The notes beneath the pieces were generated by a model. The model was not told the origin of the DNA and ran no database searches. It saw nothing but the letters and a program-made list of their open reading frames with translations. From Roseateles oligotrophus (GTDB lineage Bacteria > Pseudomonadota > Gammaproteobacteria > Burkholderiales > Burkholderiaceae_C): a DNA stretch of 64,000 nucleotides. The first letter of the stretch is position 1, and each line of letters opens with the position of its first letter. The position numbers were made by a program, and so were the translations under genes. Below, one piece after another: positions 18,534 to 20,188 of the stretch. The stretch covers positions 124,001-188,000 of the forward strand of contig NZ_JAJIRN010000001.1 of the NCBI RefSeq assembly GCF_025717515.1, written 5' to 3'.

Positions 18534-18570
18534 AATCATGAAAGCGGTTTCTGAAAGCGCTTTCATGATT
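18534..18570. promoter_or_regulatory. LacI-family-type double operator
   Basis: TGAAAGCGCTTTCA at 18552-18565 is a perfect 14-bp palindrome of the form recognised by many LacI-family repressors (central CG, TGAAA/TTTCA arms). TGAAAGCGGTTTCT at 18539-18552 is a weaker copy joined to it. As a whole, AATCATGAAAGCG (18534-18546) is a perfect inverted copy of CGCTTTCATGATT (18558-18570). Likely controls the minus-strand PEP-CTERM/GH16 genes. No LacI gene is in the window. Confidence 0.65.
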
Positions 18571-18745
18571 GCCGAACGATATGAGCAAACGAAAAGGCCG
18601 TCCATGTGGAATACCCTTGTATGTGGGAGTCTGGATATTGGCATCGCTCCTTAAGTGGCCCATCTGAGCAAGCTCTGCCGACATTTGGATGGGCCAGTTT
18701 TGGTGTGGTTTTGCAAGCTTGGCGGCACGTAGAACATCATCGGTG

Positions 18746-18757
18746 CCCCCCCCCCCC
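18746..18757. repeat. C12 homopolymer
   Basis: Twelve consecutive C residues in the intergenic region. Such tracts can change length by slippage and are also prone to sequencing error. No gene reads through it. Confidence 0.7.
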
Positions 18758-18839
18758 ATGTCGTCGTTGCAAATCCTCGCGACGCCACTTGGTGTCCCTG
18801 CGGTCTATGCCTAAGCACAGAACCAAATTCATCGGTTTT

Positions 18840-18853
18840 TGAAAGTGCTATCA
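18840..18853. promoter_or_regulatory. Third LacI-type operator-like site
   Basis: TGAAAGTGCTATCA matches the perfect palindrome at 18552-18565 in 12 of 14 positions. It lies 240 bases before the start of the divergent sugar-binding protein gene, so one regulator could act on both sides. Confidence 0.45.
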
Positions 18854-19093: not shown

Positions 19094-20188
19094 ATGCGAA
19101 CACTGCGCGCCGGCCTGCTAGTCTTGCTGCTGCAATTGGCGGCACCTTGGGCAATCGCCTTGAACGTAGCCTTTGTCAATCCGGGCCGTTCGAACGAGGC
19201 CTTCTGGTTGGCCTCCAGCCAAGCCATGCAGTCCGCCGCCGACAGCCTCGGCATCAGACTGGAAGTTCTCTACGCCGAACGTGAGCCGAAGCGAGCGTTG
19301 GAGATCGCACAGGAGATTGCCCAGCGACCCGCCGCGAAGCGACCCGACTATGTGATCCTGGTCAACGAAAAAGGAACCCTGGTTGAAAGCGCGCAAGCTC
19401 TGGGCGCAGCCGGGATCAAGACCTTTGCCGCCTACAGTGGCCTGCTGCCGCAGGAACGGGCGCAATGGGCGCCGCGCAAGGGCCTGCCGCTGCTGCTGGG
19501 CAGCCTGGAGCCGCGCGCTCGCGATGCCGGCTACCTGACCGCCCGTGCGCTGATTCAGCAAGGTCTGGCCGAGAAACGCCTGGCCGCAGATGGCAAGTTG
19601 CACATGCTGGCGCTGGCCGGTGACCGTTCAACCCCGGTCTCGATTCAGCGCAATGAAGGCCTCCGCCAGGCCCTTGCCGAGAATCCGCAGGTCGAGTTGA
19701 AGGAGCAAGCCTTTGGCGACTGGCGTCGCGATCTGGCCAAGGAGAAGACGCAAGGCCTGCTGCAGCGCTATCCGGAGGCCCAATTGCTCTGGGCCGCCAG
19801 TGATCTGATGGCTTTTGGCGCCCTTGAGGCCCTGGAGTCCCGTGAGCGCAAACCCGGTCGGGACATGCTGGTGTCGGCCATCAACACCTCGACAGAGGCG
19901 ATGCAGGCACGCATAGACGGGCGCTTCGCGGCGCTGGCCGGCGGCCATTTCATGACCGGTGCCTGGGCCTTGGTGATGATTTACGACCATGCCCAAGGCC
20001 GCGACTTCAGCGACGAAGGCCTCGAACTGGAGCGGCCGATGTTCATGCTCTTCAGCAAGCCGGAAGCGACGCGCTTCCTGAGTCGTTTCGAGGGAGGCAT
20101 AGGCAAGCTCGACTTTCGACCCTATAGCAAGCATCTGAATTTAAGGCTGAAGCAATATCAATTCGGGCCGGGTGCCTTGTTGAAATAG
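19094..20188 (+). CDS. Periplasmic sugar-binding protein (Peripla_BP_4 type)
   Basis: Secreted protein of 364 residues. Signal peptide MRTLRAGLLVLLLQLAAPWA precedes ALNVAFVNPGRSNEAFW, the opening of the type I periplasmic-binding fold used for ribose, galactose and similar sugars. Later parts fit the fold: EIAQRPAAKRPDYVILVNEKG, MLALAGDRSTPVSIQRNEGL, LLWAASDLMAFGALEALE and VSAINTSTEAMQARIDGRF. No permease or ATPase gene is adjacent, so it may feed a sensor kinase or a transporter elsewhere. The ATG at 19094 is used because it gives a proper signal peptide; the frame is open back to 18968. It is divergent from the beta-glucanase genes. Confidence 0.85.
   Translation: MRTLRAGLLVLLLQLAAPWAIALNVAFVNPGRSNEAFWLASSQAMQSAADSLGIRLEVLYAEREPKRALEIAQEIAQRPAAKRPDYVILVNEKGTLVESAQALGAAGIKTFAAYSGLLPQERAQWAPRKGLPLLLGSLEPRARDAGYLTARALIQQGLAEKRLAADGKLHMLALAGDRSTPVSIQRNEGLRQALAENPQVELKEQAFGDWRRDLAKEKTQGLLQRYPEAQLLWAASDLMAFGALEALESRERKPGRDMLVSAINTSTEAMQARIDGRFAALAGGHFMTGAWALVMIYDHAQGRDFSDEGLELERPMFMLFSKPEATRFLSRFEGGIGKLDFRPYSKHLNLRLKQYQFGPGALLK

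Follow-up and report, generated by a model that had tools for sequence, protein, structure and literature searches.

We consider here a set of palindromes upstream of a presumed beta-glucanase operon in a 64,000-nucleotide stretch of Roseateles DNA (the window), located on contig C1 of a 5.76-Mb genome in 55 contigs. The operon encodes two proteins with a C-terminal PEP-CTERM motif, followed by a GH16 beta-glucanase whose C-terminal module is a CBM56. A gene for a periplasmic protein of sugar-binding type points the other way, and the palindromes lie in the intergenic region between them. Judged by the sequence evidence gathered below, these palindromes would constitute a real operator.

The primary site, TGAAAGCGCTTTCA, is a perfect, even palindrome with a central CG, the form described for LacI-family operators in section 9 of PMC4052901. 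An imperfect site, TGAAAGCGGTTTCT, overlaps it at an offset of 13 bp, and the overlap itself forces one of the two mismatches of this weaker copy. Together they contain an exact 13-bp inverted repeat (arms 18534-18546 and 18558-18570, spacer of 11 bases). A third copy, TGAAAGTGCTATCA, matches at 12 of 14 bases. All of these elements had been described in the earlier note, and their sequences and coordinates proved exact, with no mismatch in the primary site and two in each of the others. The doublet is placed 84–110 bp before the start codon of the first PEP-CTERM gene, within the usual range of LacI operators (more than 75% of known sites lie 30–140 bp before the start codon; PMC4052901 section 9). 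It should be mentioned that a run of 12 C at 18746-18757 separates the doublet from the third copy; this run may vary or be a weak point of sequencing.

Copies of the site in the genome and the candidate regulator

The genome search proposed in the earlier note turned up six perfect 14-bp copies of TGAAAGCGCTTTCA, one of them beside a LacI gene, against about 0.01 expected from base composition. With up to two mismatches allowed, the genome contains 22 places: the six perfect copies, none with one mismatch and 16 with two (the weaker sites were studied at seven loci). The reversed sequence, taken as a control, matched six places in this genome at the same threshold and gave no perfect match in any of the 18 genomes of the genus sample, which includes the window genome. 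A chance palindrome is, in our opinion, hardly credible. The window taken alone would agree with it, since at up to three mismatches it contains three places against 3.1 expected; with no excess there, it is the perfect copy and the genome-wide evidence that carry the argument, and the weak copies stand by position only. What speaks against chance is the number of perfect copies, together with their co-occurrence with one group of LacI proteins, described below.

All six perfect copies adjoin beta-glucan or glucose genes (Table 1). The beta-glucanase, beta-glucosidase, uptake and glucokinase genes found beside them are those of a BglR-type regulon. The best NCBIfam match of the GH30 protein is an endo-1,6-beta-glucanase, below the cut-off of the model; the true start of its gene may lie further on, because the earliest ATG in its reading frame shares bases with the site. 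At locus L022 (6486-9014), a phosphotransferase system (PTS) protein fuses IIA(Glc), HPr and enzyme I, and a predicted TGAAAGCGCTTTCA operator lies upstream.

The regulator is encoded outside the window. Matches to PF00356 (E <= 0.001) identify five LacI genes in the genome, none of them on contig C1, in agreement with the statement of the earlier note that the window contains no LacI gene. For only one of the five, on contig C23, does a perfect copy lie no more than about 1.5 kb from the helix-turn-helix region. Its product combines the helix-turn-helix domain PF00356 with a sugar-binding domain, and the site lies 89 bp past the 3′ end of the gene. The other four genes were considered and rejected as sources of the regulator, as no perfect TGAAAGCGCTTTCA occurs in the stretches around them. 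Three of these four have a nearby perfect 14-bp palindrome whose sequence differs from TGAAAGCGCTTTCA; two of these palindromes are so G+C-rich that they may be due to chance, and the palindrome of the C5 gene, GGCAAACGTTTGCC, is AT-rich enough to resemble an operator of its own. The C5 gene also has a two-mismatch copy of TGAAAGCGCTTTCA.

The best structure matches of the DNA-binding domain of the C23 protein are CcpA and the Lac repressor. It could be argued, therefore, that the repressor is a global regulator of glucose and central carbon metabolism, of the kind represented by GluR or CcpA, and that the glucanase operon is a peripheral target. The closeness of this domain to CcpA and the sites at glucokinase and at the fused glucose PTS would suit such a regulator; however, the scanned neighbours of the six perfect sites serve the breakdown of glucan and the uptake or phosphorylation of glucose, with no Entner-Doudoroff, tricarboxylic acid (TCA) cycle or gluconeogenic gene among them, and a global role appears quite improbable to us.

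Table 1. Features of the window and places of the palindrome elsewhere in the genome
Feature	Location	Strand	Remarks
GH16 + CBM56 beta-glucanase, about 598 aa	15059..16855	-	start codon uncertain
PEP-CTERM protein 2, 219 aa	16858..17517	-	middle gene
PEP-CTERM protein 1, 237 aa	17742..18455	-	first gene of presumed operon
Imperfect operator TGAAAGCGGTTTCT	18539..18552	.	2 mismatches, 13-bp offset, overlaps primary site; in G001 with one base changed
Primary LacI-type operator (predicted) TGAAAGCGCTTTCA	18552..18565	.	perfect copy in the window, at the operon GH16-CBM56 + two PEP-CTERM genes; 6 genome copies; kept in G001
21-base block ACAAGGGTATTCCACATGGAC	18600..18620	-	5′ of operator; identical in G001
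Third weak copy TGAAAGTGCTATCA	18840..18853	.	2 mismatches; not conserved; possible auxiliary operator
Divergent periplasmic sugar-binding-type protein	19094..20188	+	probably outside regulon
Perfect copy	C2:98391		5′ of TonB-dependent receptor, just beyond glucokinase end
Perfect copy	C2:99545		between glucokinase and divergent GH30
Perfect copy	C4:151118		5′ of fused IIA-HPr-enzyme I, glucose IIBC, GH3
Perfect copy	C23:54818		5′ of second GH16; response-regulator-like gene on opposite side
Perfect copy	C23:72570		5′ of extracellular solute-binding protein; further on GH1 beta-glucosidase + ABC ATPase
LacI gene, best regulator candidate	C23:72672-73727	-	perfect site in the gap from its 3′ end to the ABC binding-protein gene

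Distribution of the site, the doublet and the candidate regulator

Another line of evidence is the joint occurrence of the site and the C23 type of LacI protein. Within the genus, 16 of the 18 genomes have perfect sites together with a LacI relative 55–91% identical to the C23 protein, and the remaining two have neither, their LacI matches being distant (37% and 35%). The LacI relative is in pieces in one of the 16 genomes (G007) and cut by a contig end in another (G002). In G007 (C1:1439737-1440754; L091 7773-8754) the two pieces look as if frameshifted, and the site and the regulon genes are retained. Among 120 genomes of the family, a LacI match at E <= 1e-85 is present in 21 and a perfect site in 21; 16 genomes have both and 94 neither (Fisher p about 1e-11). 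In 12 of the 16 genomes with both, the perfect site lies just 3′ of the LacI gene (at 56–149 bp in 11, the twelfth being the window genome). In the others it is at 299 bp (G070), at 237 bp (G124), on another contig (G061) or more than 5 kb away (G077, where locus L230 has no site near the LacI gene).

Paralogs of the LacI protein that are 47–48% identical adjoin variant palindromes, TGCAAGCGCTTGCA in L236, L237 and L238 and TGAAATCGATTTCA in L235, and these four loci are a natural set for studies of specificity. The sites of the other regulon members are conserved within the genus, where the genes scanned are part of those beside the 52 perfect site places (51 if a G016 site found at two contig ends with identical flanks is counted once). 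In relatives, GH81 genes occur beside sites and GH17 one gene further, which would fit beta-1,3-glucan as the substrate.

The doublet of the window operon is present at the same promoter in G001, the one other genus genome that has the operon. When the two promoters are aligned, a single base of the 27-bp doublet is changed, and conservation is much lower in the stretch from there to the start codon. On either side of the doublet the adjoining bases have changed in a symmetrical way (A..T to T..A), which is one event only. The 16-base core of ACAAGGGTATTCCACATGGAC occurs, among 210 loci, only in the window promoter and its G001 counterpart.

A partner at 13 bp accompanies two of the 52 genus sites, and both are at this promoter, in the window genome and in G001. 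A one-mismatch partner at 23, 32–33 or 36 bp accompanies 14 of them (13 with the doubled G016 end taken as one place). Beyond the genus, L225 has a perfect site with a three-mismatch partner at 13 bp. Section 9 of PMC4052901 gives 13, 22 and 32 bp as preferred spacings of LacI sites and reports overlapping operators at 110 operons, including GntR of E. coli. The window doublet shares its 13-bp offset with those overlapping operators, and the arrangement is therefore known; unlike the overlapping cases at large, the genus sites have this offset at the window-operon promoter only.

The earlier note had also placed the divergent sugar-binding gene under the control of these sites, and this part was not supported. 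The doublet is about 530 bp from the divergent start codon. Homologues of the binding protein (E <= 1e-40) occur in 10 of the 18 genus genomes, the window genome included, and G001 has none at this threshold, another gene being situated upstream of its operon. None of the nine other homologues has a site with up to two mismatches within 1.5 kb upstream; in two of them, a three-mismatch site lies at about -375. Control of this gene is thus not conserved across its genus homologues. One could still suppose that all three copies work together as a looping operator set for both divergent transcripts, with the 18840 site serving the sugar-binding gene. This site is about 241–254 bp before the divergent ATG; in simulations of the 638-bp intergenic stretch under a first-order Markov model, a best match with up to two mismatches, as good as this copy, arose in 0.3% of 4000 runs; and in G008 and G011 the homologue and the beta-glucan cluster are no more than about 10 kb apart. 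Nevertheless, the lack of sites at the nine homologues, the different gene at that place in G001, and the presence of the binding-protein gene in both genus genomes that have neither regulator nor sites make a looping set unlikely. For the third copy, a role as an auxiliary operator peculiar to this lineage is possible.

Interpretation and relation to known systems

We regard it as very probable that the doublet is the operator of the C23 LacI-family repressor, BglR-like in kind, and that this repressor controls the window operon and the five other site loci. We infer that the C23 protein binds there, represses and responds to an effector, and also that one transcript covers all three genes of the window operon. 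When substrate is lacking, the repressor on the palindromes would block transcription of the two PEP-CTERM genes and the GH16-CBM56 gene, and likewise of the second GH16, glucokinase and GH30, the TonB receptor, the glucose PTS with GH3, and the ABC binding protein with GH1. Binding of a product of beta-1,3/1,6-glucan breakdown would then release the repressor from DNA. Relief by glucose or a short beta-glucoside is likely; both the sign of the regulation and the effector are suggested by knowledge of the family and by predictions for BglR and GluR. In this way the regulator probably induces the genes for beta-glucan digestion jointly with those of two surface-sorted proteins. The C-terminal motifs of the window proteins are matched by two exosortase genes in the genome (contigs C45 and C54), so that surface sorting is possible. 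For PEP-CTERM protein 1, in which a glucan-binding module was sought, the predicted fold (two sequences) had a mean pLDDT of 38.6 and was not used. From the earlier suggestion of a shared regulon for glucan sensing and surface display there remain a LacI-type operator, a candidate LacI gene with its own site, the glucan and glucose genes and the two PEP-CTERM proteins; the divergent gene probably drops out.

To the lack of an excess in the window, several further points that weigh against this interpretation must be added. Binding and regulation are predicted from sequence. The gap between the two PEP-CTERM genes is 224 bases, for which reason a single transcript is not certain, and no terminator is predicted inside the operon. 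The intergenic region contains no sigma-70 consensus promoter from which the position of the operator relative to a transcription start could be read. The operon, with its gene order and doublet, is present in 2 of the 18 genus genomes. In the family, five of the 120 genomes have a perfect site and no LacI match, and five have the LacI match and no perfect site; in four of the latter a site with one to three mismatches lies close to the LacI gene that matches best, and L223 has none. Next to some sites in relatives there are genes lacking a Pfam match, a gene for an M28 peptidase or one for a di-haem oxidoreductase. Lastly, TGAAAGCGCTTTCA is absent, at up to two mismatches, from all 13 Oxalobacteraceae loci with a GH16 relative (L132-L143 and L147). 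Conservation in relatives, by which the earlier note would have its proposal judged, is thus found at the one other genus operon and at the other regulon members, and fails at these 13 loci. The predicted LacI control of glucan genes holds, in our view, with these points taken into account.

The Oxalobacteraceae belong to a set of 80 loci with GH16 relatives (963 kb) that contains 11 sites at up to two mismatches, two of them on the G001 contig. As aligned, each of the 13 carries a TTGACA/TATATT-like promoter and, close behind it, a TGGAA-n-(C/G)G-TTTCCA palindrome, about 55–250 bases before the GH16 match; under a stricter filter the pair is present in 10 of 12 loci, L138 not being among the 12. 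GH16 there seems, therefore, to be under LacI-type control as well, with another specificity, although the 13 loci are not independent because the species are related. No homologue of the two PEP-CTERM proteins of the window occurs in these loci at E <= 1e-8. In some gammaproteobacterial GH16 relatives, palindromes with one or two mismatches to TGAAAGCGCTTTCA (e.g., TGGAAGCGCTTTCA and TGTAAGCGCTTACA) precede the GH16 match by at most about 600 bases (L151 1204 and 1237; L152 5616; L145 5415; L164 5705).

The proposed regulon has close counterparts. For BglR of Shewanella, PMC2996990 predicts sites at bglA-bglT-bglR, glcP-bglA and omp. Both would be beta-glucoside regulons; the Shewanella transporters are BglT and GlcP, whereas ABC and PTS genes take their place in Roseateles, where PEP-CTERM proteins also carry the site. 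The two regulators are likened by regulon content, not by orthology. GluR and BglR1-3 of Caulobacterales are LacI regulators of glucose and beta-glucosides, with glucose or a beta-glucoside as the proposed effector, as described in PMC4052901. The GluR regulon in that description includes glucokinase, as do the Roseateles sites; its 20-bp motif and its Entner-Doudoroff and TCA targets differ, and none of the genes scanned at the perfect Roseateles sites is of the latter two kinds.

CcpA of Firmicutes is the best solved match to the DNA-binding domain of the C23 protein. It is a global regulator that works with phosphorylated HPr; unlike it, the Roseateles regulator looks local by its sites. 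The cre consensus of CcpA presumably resembles the TGAAAGCGCTTTCA palindrome, and the exact 14-mer has reportedly turned up in one paper on Clostridium phytofermentans. Among papers judged by title or abstract, a scope outside which RegPrecise falls, we found none that describes this regulon. The regulation is of a familiar kind, and the present case is a well-supported further example.

A more far-reaching proposal can be offered tentatively, as one that we think possible and somewhat less probable than its negation: a beta-glucan-responsive LacI regulator may have taken over an operon in which a secreted GH16-CBM56 glucanase is coupled to a pair of exosortase-sorted surface proteins, and glucan would then induce both its digestion and a surface or matrix layer holding enzyme or substrate, the 13-bp overlapping operator giving this operon a response threshold of its own. 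If true, this would put exosortase substrates under the control of a specific polysaccharide. The analysis provides a concrete, testable regulon for the use of beta-1,3/1,6-glucan in Roseateles, with its likely regulator named, and offers a defined inducing condition for the study of two PEP-CTERM/exosortase substrates, members of a class whose roles are mostly obscure.
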